Below are positions 38,281 to 44,271 of a stretch of 49,344 nucleotides of DNA, piece after piece (position 1 is the stretch's first letter; the number at the start of each line of letters is the position of its first letter). The DNA lies in contig JASMLZ010000067.1 of the NCBI GenBank assembly GCA_030748435.1, positions 1 to 49,344 of the forward strand. Reading direction: 5' to 3'. The stretch comes from Gammaproteobacteria bacterium. GTDB lineage: Bacteria; Pseudomonadota; Gammaproteobacteria; Pseudomonadales; Balneatricaceae. Under the pieces are notes generated by a model. That model saw only the letters and a program-made list of their open reading frames with translations, was not told where the DNA came from and did no database searches. Both the position numbers and the translations under genes were made by a program.

Positions 38281-38496
38281 TGGAATAGTCGGTGTTCTAT
38301 AATCTATAGCCTGTCAAAGACCAGACTAGGGATGTTATTGGGCAGTCTGATGTAAGCGAGCAATAGAGAACAATACTGTAGCTGCAAAGTCTCTATAAGA
38401 TAAGAAAGCCATCTAAGCAGCAGACTGCAGTTCAGGTTGATCAATGACAACCACTCCACCAACCCGAATCCGCAATAATCAACGCTGCAGTAGCAA

Positions 38497-39621
38497 TCAA
38501 CCGCGATAATAGCGCTGTGGCACAAACGGCATCGGCGCCACACGACAAGGTAAGAGCTTGCCCCTTACCTGAGCAAATACCTGACTATCCACTGTTGCCG
38601 CTGCGGCATCCACATAGGCCATGGCAATAGGTACTCCCAAGGTTGGGCTAAAGCCACCGGAAGTCACTTTGCCAATAACCTGACCATCGGCATTGACTAT
38701 GTCCACTCCTTCACGCACCGGAGCGCGACCTTCCGGCAATAAACCCACTCGCAACTGAGCGGGCTGGGCAGCCAATTCAGCAAATACCTTGGCGGCTCCC
38801 GGGAAGCCCCCTTCTCGCTCGCCTCCTGGACGGCGGGCTTTTTGCATAGCCCATAGAAGATTGGCGGCAACAGGCGTGGTAGTCTGATCAAGGTCATGAC
38901 CATAAAGACATAGACCCGCCTCTAAACGCAAAGAGTCACGGGCCCCCAAACCAATCCATTCCACCTCATCAAAGGCCAGCAGTGTAGCTGCCAGTGCTTC
39001 AGCACGATCATTGGGTACAGAAATTTCTACTCCGTCTTCACCCGTGTAACCGGCACGGCCAACAAAGCAATCATGCCCTAAAATGGCAACCGGTTTGCCA
39101 TCCATAAAGCGCATATCGGCAACTTCCGGAGCCAAACGAGCCAGCACTTCGACGGCCTTGGGCCCCTGCAAAGCCAGCAAAGCACGATCCGATAGCTCCT
39201 CCATAATAATATCAGCCGGCAGGTTAGCTCGCAGATGAGCTATATCCTGTGCTTTACAGGCGGCGTTAACTACCACATAAAAACCATCCTCTACCCGGGT
39301 CACCATCAGGTCATCCATAATGCAGCCATCAGCATTGGTGAACATGCCATAGCGCTGACGCCCCACAGCCAAATCCACATAATTAGCTGGAATCAACGCC
39401 TCCAGAGCCAGCGCCACAGCCTCTACTGAGGGCCCCGAGAGTTTTAACTGGCCCATATGGGAAACATCAAATAACCCTGCCGCAGCGCGGCAATGCAGAT
39501 GTTCCTGCTTGACTCCCAAAGGATATTGCACCGGCATTTCATAACCGGCAAAGGGTACCATTTTGGCACCAGCTTCCATATGCATGGCATGGAAAGGAGT
39601 AATCAATAGACTATCAGACAT
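38497..39621 (-). CDS. gcvT: Aminomethyltransferase, glycine cleavage T protein
   Basis: The 374-residue product transfers the methylene group from the aminomethyl-lipoyl H protein to tetrahydrofolate, releasing ammonia. Signature sequences: MVPFAGYEMPVQYPLGVKQEH, LFDVSHMGQ, GYTGEDGVEISV (folate-site region) and LGARDSLRLEAGLCLYGHDL. GGGGG precedes the ATG. Unlike E. coli, gcvT is separated from gcvHP and is divergent, with an XRE-cupin regulator gene between. Its promoter carries the palindrome at 39833-39848 between -35 and -10, giving direct repression by the binding factor. Confidence 0.97.
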   Translation of the reverse strand: MSDSLLITPFHAMHMEAGAKMVPFAGYEMPVQYPLGVKQEHLHCRAAAGLFDVSHMGQLKLSGPSVEAVALALEALIPANYVDLAVGRQRYGMFTNADGCIMDDLMVTRVEDGFYVVVNAACKAQDIAHLRANLPADIIMEELSDRALLALQGPKAVEVLARLAPEVADMRFMDGKPVAILGHDCFVGRAGYTGEDGVEISVPNDRAEALAATLLAFDEVEWIGLGARDSLRLEAGLCLYGHDLDQTTTPVAANLLWAMQKARRPGGEREGGFPGAAKVFAELAAQPAQLRVGLLPEGRAPVREGVDIVNADGQVIGKVTSGGFSPTLGVPIAMAYVDAAAATVDSQVFAQVRGKLLPCRVAPMPFVPQRYYRG

Positions 39622-39649
39622 AATGCCCCCAAAAGATTAATTGAGACCT

Positions 39650-39712
39650 TTACACGGTGGTTATTGGACTCTGTGACAGCACTAAAAACGTATTCATTTG
39701 GTTATTTATCAT
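39650..39712 (-). CDS. Possible 20-residue leader peptide before gcvT
   Basis: ATG 39712 opens MINNQMNTFLVLSQSPITTV with stop TAA at 39650-39652, 28 bp before the gcvT start. GAGGGAG (39720-39726) is spaced 7 bases before its ATG, a strong ribosome site. There is no run of glycine or serine codons, so it does not look like a simple attenuation peptide. It may just be a chance frame in the roughly 190-nt leader. Confidence 0.35.
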   Translation of the reverse strand: MINNQMNTFLVLSQSPITTV

Positions 39713-39821
39713 ATCTAAACTCCCTCTTTGCGTGCGTTTTTACCTTGTCACAGAACAAAATACCGGGTCGTGCCAAGACCTCGAAGTGGATTATCAAGTT
39801 CTACTCGCTAAGTTGAGGGCG

Positions 39822-39850
39822 ATTATAGGGAAGTTTCCTATAGGAAACAA
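39822..39850 (-). promoter_or_regulatory. gcvT promoter
   Basis: Minus strand: -35 TTGTTT (39845-39850), a 17-base spacer, consensus -10 TATAAT (39822-39827). The start of transcription would be near 39815, leaving a leader of about 190 nt. Confidence 0.75.
39833..39848. promoter_or_regulatory. Operator palindrome in the gcvT promoter
   Basis: GTTTCCTATAGGAAAC is a perfect 16-bp palindrome. Most of it lies between the -35 and -10 of the gcvT promoter, overlapping the -35. Its 14-bp core recurs at the gcvH promoter. It is the likely binding site of the regulator encoded at 40056-40679. Confidence 0.72.
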
Positions 39851-40055
39851 ATTTTCTTAATAAAAATTTAGTGCTGATGTCTAAACACCATAGTTAAGCG
39901 CACCAATCTGCTCTGGCAAGGGTAATTATCGAAGGGGAGCTAAAAAACATATCAATTCGTCATGGTCAACACAGCAATCCCTGCCCAATAAACCCATAGC
40001 CAGGCAATCACCGTGTTATTATGCTTTGCACGATAAGCAAATTTACGGGCCTTGG

Positions 40056-40679
40056 TTAGCGGGCAACCACCCACAACACCAAAGCATCCTGCTGACTCAG
40101 ACTCACCAGGCCATGCCCCATATTGGCGTCATAATACATACTATCACCAGCTTGCAAGGCGATCGGTTCGTAAAATTCTGTGTACAGGGCCACCTCCCCT
40201 TCAAGTACCAAAAGAAATTCTTCGCCTTCATGACGCACCCAATCAGAAAAATCATCAAAGCTACGCGCCCTTACTCGTGTCTTAAAAGGAATCATCTTCT
40301 TACGTGCCAATTCCGTAGATAATAGCTCGTGTTCGTAGGTACTAGTGGGATGTGAGGTACCCTCACCCGCCCGAGTCAGCACACGGCGACCAGAGGCCAT
40401 AGCGTTCTTTGGCGCAGCAAACAATTGGGGAATATCAATATTTAAACCATTGGCCAGTTTTTGCACCGCCGTAAAGGTCGGTGATATCTGCTCATTTTCA
40501 ATCTTGGAAAGCGTTGACCGAGCCAAACCAGTCTTTTGACTCGCTTCTTCCAGAGTAAGATTCATATTCTTACGAATTTCCCGCAGGCGCTGCCCTAATT
40601 GCAGTGGTTCTACAGTGCTTTCAGCGCCGGATCCGGATTCAATTTTCAGCTCTGGCATATCTGGTTGTTCCGCAGACAT
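40056..40679 (-). CDS. XRE-cupin transcriptional regulator, probable regulator of gcvT and gcvHP
   Basis: The 207-residue product has an N-terminal XRE/Cro helix-turn-helix (about 30-85: LRLREIRKNMNLTLEEASQ is approximately its first part, followed by KTGLARSTLSKIENEQISPT) and a C-terminal cupin (about 125-205: HEGEEFLLVLEGEVALY and LQAGDSMYYDANMGHGLVSL). This architecture is that of PuuR/SutR-type regulators, where the cupin binds a small effector. AGGAG precedes ATG 40679. It sits between divergent gcvT and gcvHP, whose promoters share one palindrome. The effector may be glycine or a one-carbon compound; that is inference. Confidence 0.88.
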   Translation of the reverse strand: MSAEQPDMPELKIESGSGAESTVEPLQLGQRLREIRKNMNLTLEEASQKTGLARSTLSKIENEQISPTFTAVQKLANGLNIDIPQLFAAPKNAMASGRRVLTRAGEGTSHPTSTYEHELLSTELARKKMIPFKTRVRARSFDDFSDWVRHEGEEFLLVLEGEVALYTEFYEPIALQAGDSMYYDANMGHGLVSLSQQDALVLWVVAR

Positions 40680-40804
40680 GATACTCTCCTAAATTCTTAA
40701 GCAAGTGGGCCATAAAGGCAGCACGCATCCTAACACGAGCCGCCACAGAGCGCTATTTAGCTATGCTATATAAGATAACCAGAACATAACTGCATATTAC
40801 ATAT

Positions 40805-40820
40805 GTTTCCTATAGGAAAT
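40805..40820. promoter_or_regulatory. Operator palindrome at the gcvH promoter
   Basis: GTTTCCTATAGGAAAT contains the same 14-bp core, TTTCCTATAGGAAA, as the gcvT operator. It abuts the -35 of the gcvH promoter (1 base between) and also lies upstream of the regulator gene itself, which reads the other way. Confidence 0.72.
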
Positions 40821-40821
40821 T

Positions 40822-40850
40822 TTGTTGATTGAGTTTTCCTGAAATGTTAT
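40822..40850 (+). promoter_or_regulatory. gcvHP promoter
   Basis: -35 TTGTTG (40822-40827), a 17-base spacer, -10 TGTTAT (40845-40850), 69 bp before gcvH. The spacer contains TTTTCCTGAAA, a partial second copy of the operator. It is weaker than the gcvT promoter. Confidence 0.55.
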
Positions 40851-40918
40851 CCTGCCCCCAATTCATTGGCTGTTATTGCCAATGCCTAAATCAACTATTT
40901 AACAGGAAGGAGTATGCT

Positions 40919-41311
40919 ATGAGCAACATCCCCGCCGAATTGCGCTATACCAGCACTCACGAATGGGTCGTCGACAACGGTGACGGCACCGTAACCATTG
41001 GCATTACTGATCACGCCCAAGAACTGTTGGGTGACATTGTGTTTGTAGAAGCTGTTGATAGCGACCGTGAACTGGCAGCTGGTGAAGAATATACGGTCAT
41101 CGAATCGGTAAAGGCTGCATCTGACTCCTACGCCCCCATCAATGGCACCGTTATTGCGTTTAACGAAGCTCTGGAAGATGCACCTGAGACCATTAACGAA
41201 GAGCCTTATACCGATGGCTGGATCGTCAAAATGCAGGTGGCTGATCATGCCGAACTGGATGGGCTGCTGGATGCTGAGGGCTACGCTGAAGTCGTTGCCA
41301 ACGAAGCCTAA
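40919..41311 (+). CDS. gcvH: Glycine cleavage H protein
   Basis: The 130-residue lipoyl carrier shuttles the aminomethyl group between GcvP, GcvT and the dihydrolipoyl dehydrogenase. The lipoylated lysine is in ESVKAASD (about residue 65). Start ATG 40919 (MSNIPAELRYTSTHEW) has AGGAAGG upstream; a frame from 40829 begins inside the promoter. It precedes gcvP by 68 bp in the same transcript. Length is typical. Confidence 0.97.
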   Translation: MSNIPAELRYTSTHEWVVDNGDGTVTIGITDHAQELLGDIVFVEAVDSDRELAAGEEYTVIESVKAASDSYAPINGTVIAFNEALEDAPETINEEPYTDGWIVKMQVADHAELDGLLDAEGYAEVVANEA

Positions 41312-41379
41312 GTAGTCACTAGCACTCACCCTTTGTCTGACACTATTTACGGCCTGATGGCCAATATACGAGGTTTACC

Positions 41380-44271
41380 ATGTCGAACCAGCCGCGCCTG
41401 TCTGATTTGATTCAAGAGCAAGACTTTATCCAGCGTCATATTGGCCCAGGCCAGGACGACACCCAAGCTATGCTGGATTATTTACAGGTATCCAGTGCCG
41501 ACGAACTGCTGCAACAAACTGTGCCCAGCAGTATTCGTCTGTCCCAACCACTGGCCTTACCGAGCCCCGTATGTGAAAGTCAGACGCTCGCCAAGCTACA
41601 GGCTATGGCGGCTAAGAATCAGCTCAAAACCTCCTGTATTGGCATGGGCTACAGCAATACTTTGGTGCCTCATGTTATTCTCCGTAACGTTATGGAAAAC
41701 CCTGCATGGTATACGGCCTATACACCTTATCAACCGGAAATTTCGCAAGGTCGTCTGGAAGCTCTGCTTAATTACCAGCAAATGGTTATGGATCTTACCG
41801 GCATGGAGCTGGCCAACGCCTCCCTGTTGGACGAAGCCACAGCGGCAGCCGAGGCCATGGCTTTATGTAAGCGCGCCAATAAGAAAAAGTCTGTCACCTT
41901 TATGGTGGACGCCAATACCCATCCACAAAACCTGTCAGTTATGCGCGCCCGTGCCGAATACTTTGGTTTTGAGATTGTGGTTGGCAATCCGGCGACCGAG
42001 CTGGATCAGCATGATGTGTTTGGGGTATTGGTTCAGTATCCGGGCAGCAATGGCGACATTGTAGACTTACAAGCCATTTGTGATGCCGCCCATGCTCAAA
42101 ATGCACTGGTAGCGGTCGGGGCCGATATTATGAGTCTGGTACTATTAAAGGCGCCAGGCCATCTGGGTGCTGATGTCGTATTTGGCAGCAGCCAGCGATT
42201 TGGCGTACCTATGGGCTTTGGTGGCCCACACGCGGCTTTCTTTGCCAGCAAAGATAAGTACAAGCGTTCTATTCCAGGCCGCATCATCGGTGTTTCTATC
42301 GATAGTAAAGGCAATCAGGCACTGCGTATGGCCATGCAAACTCGCGAACAGCATATCCGTCGCGAAAAAGCCAACTCCAATATATGCACAGCGCAAGCCC
42401 TGTTAGCCAATATGTCCTCTTTTTATGCGGTTTATCATGGGCCACAAGGTCTGCGCACCATCGCCACCCGTATTCAAGCCTTTACCGCTATGCTAGCCCA
42501 GTTACTGCAAGAACAAGGCTTTGCTGTGGCCAACCAGCATTTCTTTGACACCCTGACCATTAACACTGGCGACCAGACTCAAGCCATTAGCCAACGCGCT
42601 GTAGCGGCTGGCTACAATCTGCGTTGTGACAAGCACGATAGCCTGGGTATCAGTCTGGATGAAACAACACGTCTGGAAGACTTGCTCCAACTGGCTAGTG
42701 TGTTTAGTGATAAACCATGCCAGGCAGACCCCGAAGCTCTGTACGCTGCTGTCAGCGCCAGCCAGCAAGGTATGCCTGCCGATTTACAGCGCCAAGATGC
42801 GATCTTAAGTCACCCGGTATTTAACAGCTACCATAGCGAAACCGATATGCTGCGTTATCTGAAGCAGTTGGAAAACAAGGACTTCTCTTTGGTGCACGGT
42901 ATGATACCGCTTGGCTCTTGCACCATGAAGCTAAACGCCAGTGTACAGATGGCACCGGTAACCTGGCCTGAATTTGCCAATATGCATCCCTTTGCTCCAG
43001 TGGACCAGACTCAGGGTTATATGGAGTTGATTCGCTCTCTGGAAGCACAACTGGTAGAGATTACCGGTTACGACAAGATTTCCATGCAACCCAACTCAGG
43101 GGCTCAAGGCGAGTATGCCGGCCTGATTGCCATTCGCAAATACCAGGCCAGCATTGGCGAAGGACACCGCAATATCTGCCTGATTCCCAGTTCGGCCCAT
43201 GGCACCAATCCAGCCAGTGCCGCCATGGTAGATATGAAGGTTATTGTGACCCGTTGTGATGAACTGGGTAATGTAGACGTTGCCGACTTGCGCGCCAAAG
43301 CCGAAGAGCATGCGGAAAACCTGTCCTGCCTGATGATCACCTATCCATCCACCCATGGTGTGTATGAGCAGGATATCAAAGAAATCTGCGACATTATCCA
43401 CGACAAGGGTGGTCAAGTGTATATGGATGGTGCCAATATGAACGCTCAGGTGGGCATTAGCAAACCAGGCCTTATTGGCTCTGATGTATCTCACCTTAAC
43501 CTGCATAAAACCTTTGCTATTCCCCATGGTGGTGGTGGCCCCGGCATGGGCCCTATTGGTGTGAAAGCCCATCTGGCGCCATTTTTGGCCAACCACCCTG
43601 TGGTACCAGTGCATGACGAACAAAATAGTAATGAGGCCATTTCTGCCGCACCTTACGGCAGTGCTTCTATCTTGACGATATCCTGGGCCTATATCACCCT
43701 TCTGGGTGCTCAGGGGTTGCAGGAATCAACCACCATGGCCATTGTTAATGCCAACTATATGGCGACCCGCTTGGCTGAGCACTTCCCCATCCTCTATCGG
43801 GGTAATCATGACCGCATAGCCCACGAATGTATCGTGGATATTCGCCCGATCAAAGAAGCAACAGGGGTCAGTGAAGAAGATATTGCCAAGCGGCTGATGG
43901 ACTATGGCTTCCACGCACCAACCATGTCGTTCCCAGTGGCTGGTACCTTGATGATTGAGCCTACGGAATCCGAATCCAAGAGTGAAATAGATCGCTTCTG
44001 TGATGCTATGGCTTCGATTCGAGCCGAAATCAAAAAGATTGAAGAAGGCGAATGGAGCCCGAAAGCCAATCCGCTCAAGATGGCGCCGCATACACAAGCC
44101 GATTTGGCCAGTCATGGCTGGAACCGTGGTTACTCTCGCACTGTTGCCGCCTTCCCCAGTGCAGCCACCAAAGCGGCCAAGTTCTGGCCAACAGTAAATC
44201 GTATCGACAATGTCTATGGTGACCGTAATCTGGTGTGCACCTGCCCACCTATTGAGGCTTACGAAGACTAA
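41380..44271 (+). CDS. gcvP: Glycine dehydrogenase (decarboxylating), P protein
   Basis: The 963-residue homodimeric-type P protein decarboxylates glycine with PLP and passes the aminomethyl group to GcvH. The N-terminal half (about 1-460) and C-terminal half (about 461-963) are both PLP-enzyme-like. The PLP lysine is in [21 protein letters not shown] (C-terminal half). [12 protein letters not shown] and [12 protein letters not shown] are other conserved blocks. GAGG precedes the ATG. It follows gcvH in the operon whose control region carries the palindrome shared with gcvT. Confidence 0.98.

Follow-up and report, generated by a model that had tools for sequence, protein, structure and literature searches.

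The window analysed here, a stretch of DNA of 49,344 nucleotides from the genome of a marine gammaproteobacterium of the Balneatricaceae, carries gcvT on one strand and gcvH and gcvP on the other, with a gene for an XRE-cupin protein between them. This arrangement raises the question of how both halves of the glycine cleavage system are controlled and what part the intervening gene has in it. The features that bear on the answer are as follows:

38497 to 39621, minus strand: gcvT, aminomethyltransferase (Pfam; NCBIfam NF010093, 539 bits versus a cut-off of 459)
39822 to 39827, minus strand: putative gcvT -10 hexamer, TATAAT, from the sequence (TATAAT also in the 13 relatives shown, except L049 with TATACT)
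39834 to 39847, no strand: predicted operator 1, TTTCCTATAGGAAA, inside a 16-bp perfect palindrome (39833-39848) and overlapping the gcvT -35 hexamer and spacer
39845 to 39850, minus strand: putative gcvT -35 hexamer, TTGTTT, from the sequence, with a 17-bp spacer
40056 to 40679, minus strand: gene of the XRE-cupin regulator, 207 aa (Pfam, orthologue alignments)
40806 to 40819, no strand: predicted operator 2, TTTCCTATAGGAAA, ending 5 bp upstream of the gcvH -35 hexamer
40825 to 40830, plus strand: putative gcvH -35 hexamer, TTGATT, from the sequence and relatives
40848 to 40853, plus strand: putative gcvH -10 hexamer, TATCCT, from the sequence and relatives, at N17 spacing from the -35
40919 to 41311, plus strand: gcvH, H protein (Pfam and NCBIfam)
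41380 to 44271, plus strand: gcvP, glycine dehydrogenase (decarboxylating) (Pfam; TIGR00461, 1484 bits versus a cut-off of 859)

Matches to Pfam and NCBIfam confirmed the identities of the flanking gcvT, gcvH and gcvP genes and of the XRE-cupin open reading frame, which, in agreement with the original prediction, sits between the two copies of the palindrome and points away from gcvH, towards gcvT. Its product has an N-terminal XRE/HTH_3 domain (residues 32-84; PF01381, 55.4 bits versus a cut-off of 23) and a C-terminal Cupin_2 domain (residues 147-205; PF07883, 45.3 bits versus a cut-off of 27.2) that appears as beta strands in a structure model of mediocre quality (pLDDT 70.7). The recognition-helix region, LARSTLSKIENEQISPTF, was invariant across the 41 orthologues of alignment A2 and showed some changes in a wider alignment of 51 proteins, in all of which the metal-type triad of the cupin (H150, E154 and H189) was identical. 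These residues presumably correspond to those that bind the metal in HppE, an XRE-cupin enzyme that was among the top fold matches of the model, with low TM-scores. The top PDB match by both sequence and fold was 1Y9Q, an XRE-cupin of Vibrio cholerae with bound D-methionine, although the sequence match covered only the helix-turn-helix (residues 27-98) and the fold alignment had a TM-score of 0.33 and 20% identity. A tree of the orthologues had long branches and served for orientation only, and a plasmid search with positions 38400-41400 gave no match.

The exact 14-bp core claimed for both sites was indeed present twice, the positions first given for it, 39833-39848 and 40805-40820, being those of the surrounding 16-mers. 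The window contains no third copy at up to two mismatches; at this tolerance shuffled windows gave a mean of 0.16 matches, and two of 100 shuffles reached two. Throughout the 2.61-Mb genome from which the window comes, the exact sequence TTTCCTATAGGAAA occurs exactly twice, at the gcvT and gcvHP promoters that flank the XRE-cupin gene. Inexact copies were limited to one with a single mismatch (C17, inside a 265-aa open frame) and seven with two, none of which could be recognised by eye as preceding gcv, glyA, sdaA or agcS; one of the seven (C65) falls inside a distant GcvT-family paralogue. The glyA gene of this genome was located, its promoter being covered by the genome-wide palindrome scan only, and agcS was not found in a search run without a positive control.

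Among the best 80 of 362 orthologue loci from a scan of reference genomes, which included records from Vibrio, Photobacterium, Psychromonas, Saccharospirillum, Endozoicomonas and Oceanospirillaceae, gcv genes were present in the flank of 75, with all three in 73; these flanks also held glyA (31 loci), agcS (6) and sdaA (3). Of the 75 gcv loci, 72 had a site with at most two mismatches in the 480 bp preceding the regulator (63 loci), in the 300 bp preceding gcvT (30) or in both regions (21), and two more (L094 and L104) had an exact site before gcvP instead. The palindrome therefore accompanies the regulator at 74 of 75 gcv loci, a strong outcome for the check first proposed, namely that it be kept with the regulator near gcv genes in relatives; these loci are not independent, since many are from related species. 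The one exception, L111, had no site within three mismatches. The other five of the 80 loci (L067, L071, L100, L102 and L108) lacked gcv genes in the flank as well as a site adjacent to the regulator; two of these five genomes (G380 and G382) carry a further copy, which adjoins sdaA and gcvT and is accompanied by sites. When all 16,384 palindromic 14-mers were ranked by their occurrence within 430 bp upstream of 81 regulators, TTTCCTATAGGAAA came first, with 52 loci at up to one mismatch, followed by its variant TTTCCAATTGGAAA with 20; among the 105 half-site permutations used as a control, none other exceeded three loci.

The third palindrome in this ranking was CGCAAACGTTTGCG, found upstream of the regulator in 14 of the 81 loci, which we take to be a PurR-like box; purine control may thus overlie glycine control in some relatives. 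At L094 and L104, from Cellvibrionaceae-type genomes, the gcvP promoter carries a tandem pair of sites 21 bp apart, of which one is exact and the other has two mismatches (L094:2733-2767, L104:2672-2706), and the regulator lies 3 kb off, behind a GGDEF-EAL-type gene. In Aliivibrio fischeri (L109) the orthologue was accompanied by a site with two mismatches. At the Vibrio cincinnatiensis locus, the flank contained a Guanidine-II riboswitch (L064:846-892).

The palindrome was also searched blindly, at up to one mismatch, in an order sample of 95 genomes, 17 of which were regulator-positive, that is, contained an orthologue at E below 1e-70, weaker relatives being counted as absent. This yielded 47 sites (35 for the reversed control pattern), and all five exact ones adjoin the regulator. 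Of the 47 sites, 12 (in nine genomes) lay beside the regulator, 13 were in regulator-positive genomes but away from the regulator, and 22 came from the 78 regulator-negative genomes. Eight of the 13 off-locus sites precede gcvT (G274, G316 and G318), gcvH with a divergent agcS (G272 and G343) or sdaA (G280, G298 and G335), versus none of the 22 sites in regulator-negative genomes (Fisher p 5e-5); the remaining five were near no target (one each in G312, G306 and C17 of the window's own genome, and two in G343). Four regulator-positive genomes with no target site at one mismatch (G341, G355, G312 and G349) had one with two mismatches, and at this tolerance each of the 17 had a site adjoining the regulator or in the promoter of sdaA or a gcv gene. 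In the best 30 loci for each gene, a site with at most two mismatches was found upstream of gcvT in 9 of 13 regulator-positive versus 0 of 17 negative cases, and upstream of gcvH, whose operon frequently begins with another gene, in 4 of 15 versus 0 of 15. Genome G352 (87% complete) had neither orthologue nor site, and the other sampled members of its genus, G274 and G316, have the orthologue.

In a class sample of 274 genomes, exact sites were found in three: the window's own genome, G190, where the site is beside the regulator and gcvT, and G175 (L006), with no regulator or gcv gene in the stretch. The orthologue itself occurred in 6 of 369 class-wide genomes, in two of which (G154 and G195) it lies beside gcvT with a site of one or two mismatches. 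Nineteen named genomes with the orthologue contained 38 sites, versus 10 for the reversed control pattern; 14 of the 38 were near none of the eight query proteins, which implies that background matches exist. One of these 14 is an exact palindrome, at L200:3045-3058 (G366:C116), near a contig end and downstream of a frame named by eye as recG-like, with no glycine gene in the stretch. In G343, gcvT appears in two pieces with TGA stops (G343:C1:2320966-2322065), possibly a broken gene or an assembly error.

Together, these comparisons suggest that the site predicts glycine genes even when these lie far away from the regulator gene, and does so only in regulator-positive genomes, which is the strongest part of the support. 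In relatives the palindrome also precedes glyA, sdaA and agcS, the last encoding an amino-acid carrier, and the predicted regulon is that of glycine uptake and of glycine-to-serine-to-pyruvate catabolism. Our data thus support the idea of the palindrome as a common switch of gcvT and gcvHP, as originally put forward, within a regulon that in relatives appears to be wider.

At gcvT, the palindrome occupies the greater part of the spacer, together with one half of the -35, in the putative promoter TTGTTT-N17-TATAAT on the minus strand, as was anticipated when the operator was placed in the core promoter of this gene. Thirteen close relatives (L037-L049) retain this operator, with one mismatch in L037 and L038, and a few of them differ in having a -35 of TTTATT or a 16-bp spacer. 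The second operator was likewise correctly placed just upstream of the gcvH -35, from which a gap of 5 bp separates it, and this position is conserved across families. A strict consensus scan listed no promoter within 39600-40950, which we attribute to the poor -35 hexamers of both; the putative gcvT and gcvH promoters of the window rest on conservation in relatives. We also scored promoters at site-gene pairs with hexamer frequencies, counting a site between two genes once per gene. For gcvH, glyA, sdaA, gcvP and agcS, removal of near-identical or truncated rows left 70 of 91 pairs, and in 42 of the 70, from Vibrionaceae, Oceanospirillaceae and other families, the best -35 began 19-22 nt from the palindrome start, that is, 5-8 bp beyond its end. 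For gcvT, the best -35 was at -5 to -1, as in the window, in 11 of 38 pairs, the remainder being mixed. Two geometries may be distinguished, one over the -35 and spacer (gcvT) and one in which the palindrome precedes the expected start by about 48 bp (gcvH, glyA and sdaA).

Nine close relatives (L040-L048) combine an exact gcvT site with a gcvH site that has decayed to about a half site, with three mismatches, which suggests that the two operators may differ in strength; what is left at gcvH is TTTCCTAT and a right half resembling GCTA, and the promoter keeps its spacing. The distance from the palindrome centre to the gcvT start is 220 nt in the window versus 58-102 nt in the listed relatives among L037-L049, so that the gcvT leader (39622-39833) is unusually long; no Rfam element was found in it. 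Control of the regulator's own gene through the palindrome, which had also been envisaged, is doubtful: the site is 126 bp from the regulator start, and no regulator promoter could be discerned there by eye. The palindrome was 71-191 bp from the regulator start in 32 of the 35 loci displayed.

In E. coli, transcription of gcvTHP is controlled by GcvA/GcvR, which are LysR and ACT-domain proteins unrelated to the XRE-cupin regulator. We discarded GcvA as an identity for the latter, as LysR-type HTH and substrate-binding domains were not among its Pfam matches. The nearest NCBIfam equivalog is PuuR of E. coli, also an XRE-cupin, but with a different regulon (putrescine), and the score of 56.8 bits versus an NF007408 cut-off of 211 speaks against this identity as well. 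According to PMC3223726, GcvA, HexR and PUR* of Shewanella likewise place gcvTHP transcription under the control of glycine and central metabolism. A functional parallel is GcsR of P. aeruginosa, for which PMC4894688 describes glycine induction of gcvH2-gcvP2-glyA2-sdaA-gcvT2, that is, the same gene set, gcvH-gcvP-glyA-sdaA-gcvT, for the use of glycine. GcsR, however, is described there as a TyrR-like sigma-54 enhancer-binding activator with the site TGTAACG-N4-CGTTCCG, whereas the present system has an XRE-cupin protein, another palindrome, TTTCCTATAGGAAA, and sigma-70-like promoters. By its domains the regulator is not GcsR, having no AAA+ sigma-54 activator domain and only HTH and cupin families among its Pfam matches.

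The XRE-cupin regulators PauR, PsdR, ErfA, PA0535, PA1359, PA1884 and PA4987 of P. aeruginosa, as presented in the main text of PMC7901475, resemble the present one in domain order and palindromic sites, in having targets beside the regulator gene and in acting on the catabolism or uptake of small molecules. The seven with a determined regulon are reported as local inhibitors, most of which bind core promoters, and they are thought to release DNA once the cupin binds a metabolite of the pathway (PMC7901475). The regulons given in that text differ in not including gcv, glyA or sdaA, and a term search of it found neither "glycine" nor "gcv"; the sites are compared here as to their palindromic form. 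The palindromes described here are intergenic and adjacent to the regulator's own gene, and the predicted regulon is small and concerns one pathway of catabolism and uptake (two exact genomic sites; gcv, glyA, sdaA and agcS in relatives). By its domains, palindrome, location and small predicted regulon, the protein would belong to the XRE-cupin local regulators. An XRE-cupin regulator of gcv was not found described, nor the palindrome as text, in a literature search of partial coverage, most subscription journals lying outside it; this widely conserved candidate regulator of glycine catabolism, which comparative genomics supports strongly, is apparently undescribed.

The computed genes, sites and co-occurrence across genomes, unlinked targets included, lead us to infer binding, dimerisation, sign of control and ligand as follows. 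The XRE-cupin protein is probably a local regulator of gcvT and gcvHP acting through the palindromes, most likely as a repressor that glycine or a close metabolite releases. A dimer would bind GTTTCCTATAGGAAAC-type palindromes through the N-terminal helix-turn-helix, with one operator each for gcvT and gcvHP in this genome, and glyA, sdaA and agcS would be under the same regulator in relatives. Transcription of gcvT would be repressed by covering the core promoter, an inhibition that the operator geometry fits directly, and that of gcvHP by blocking access of RNA polymerase just upstream of the -35. Repression is favoured at gcvH on the ground that its expression should change in parallel with that of gcvT, the T, H and P proteins being required jointly. 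Binding of glycine or a close metabolite to the cupin would then make the regulator leave the DNA; the signal would most likely be glycine itself or a close product, as the predicted regulon equals the glycine-induced GcsR set.

The gcvH-type operator keeps a conserved spacing to the -35 that follows it, an arrangement that is also compatible with activation. With regulator and regulon unchanged, gcvHP, glyA and sdaA might be activated when glycine is present, and gcvT activated or repressed separately, as the 42 of 70 pairs with a -35 at 19-22 nt, in several families, and the failure of the window promoters in the strict consensus scan would allow. We consider this unlikely, given that in the window and close relatives the gcvT site covers the -35 and spacer, where activation is not expected, that the T, H and P proteins are required jointly and that the characterised XRE-cupins of P. 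aeruginosa are described as inhibitors in the main text of PMC7901475. There is a similarly small chance that the two operator geometries reflect two modes, repression at one kind of promoter and activation or interference with the alpha subunit at the other, which would set the T:H/P ratio; the conserved triad H150/E154/H189 indicates that the signal could then be a metal chelate of glycine itself. The identity of the ligand admits an alternative that is rather unlikely, in which the XRE-cupin senses serine, folate or redox state and glycine is read elsewhere, for example by GcvA/GcvR. A signal from the serine side would be consistent with sdaA and glyA as targets, but no glycine riboswitch reached the gathering score in the window or at the loci of 11 relatives, and the match of the regulon to the glycine-induced set, as reported in PMC4894688, speaks for glycine. 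The same Rfam result led us to reject a riboswitch or other RNA element as the explanation of the locus.

It is very improbable that the palindrome is the site of a different transcription factor, with the XRE-cupin gene a mere neighbour. Co-location alone cannot prove binding, the region holds further boxes such as the PurR-like palindrome of 14 of the 81 loci, and the exact sites of L006 and L200 are without regulator or glycine gene; yet unlinked targets carry the site only in regulator genomes (8 of 13 versus 0 of 22, and 9 of 13 versus 0 of 17 for gcvT), G352 lacks the orthologue and also the site, and the motif is unlike the GcsR and TyrR sites. An association by neighbourhood only is disfavoured by the unlinked targets and the regulator-negative controls. 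That the palindromes are RNA hairpins, terminators or products of chance is scarcely credible. A consensus scan did give a terminator-like hairpin at 39833-39848 on the plus strand, with six pairs of which three are G-C, this being one found versus 1.2 expected, but gcvT and the regulator, which flank this site, are both on the minus strand, no Rfam element lies at the palindrome, and the gcvH, glyA and sdaA sites are mostly upstream of the best promoter and so are not transcribed from it. Chance was rejected by the window shuffles, the search of 95 genomes and the ranking among palindromes.

It is worth adding that the genome of the window encodes another XRE-cupin (L117:4700-6763; G000:C15), which shares 56% identity with the regulator described above. 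It lies just downstream of sdaA both here and in all 10 relatives fetched, and an orthologue of it, 70-86% identical, was present in 10 of 12 close-relative genomes. It differs from the window's regulator at the recognition-helix region, and the sdaA genes that accompany it lack the palindrome (best matches with 5-7 mismatches at the nine loci with upstream DNA), so that this second protein serves as an internal control. A search for another palindrome shared upstream of these sdaA genes gave nothing clear. The second XRE-cupin appears to have arisen by duplication of the regulator and to have taken charge of the serine deaminase.

In summary, repression of gcvT and gcvHP by a local XRE-cupin protein, relieved by glycine or a close metabolite, is the reading that we favour for this marine bacterium and for related marine groups. 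The glycine cleavage system is very widespread, and its known regulators (GcvA/GcvR, GcsR and riboswitches) are mutually unrelated; the regulator proposed here would add another protein solution, with a site exact enough for target prediction in genomes that bear an orthologue. Furthermore, it would assign a predicted target to genes otherwise known only as XRE-family regulators, account for a gene neighbourhood that recurs in Vibrio, and supply a candidate pair of glycine-responsive promoter and repressor.
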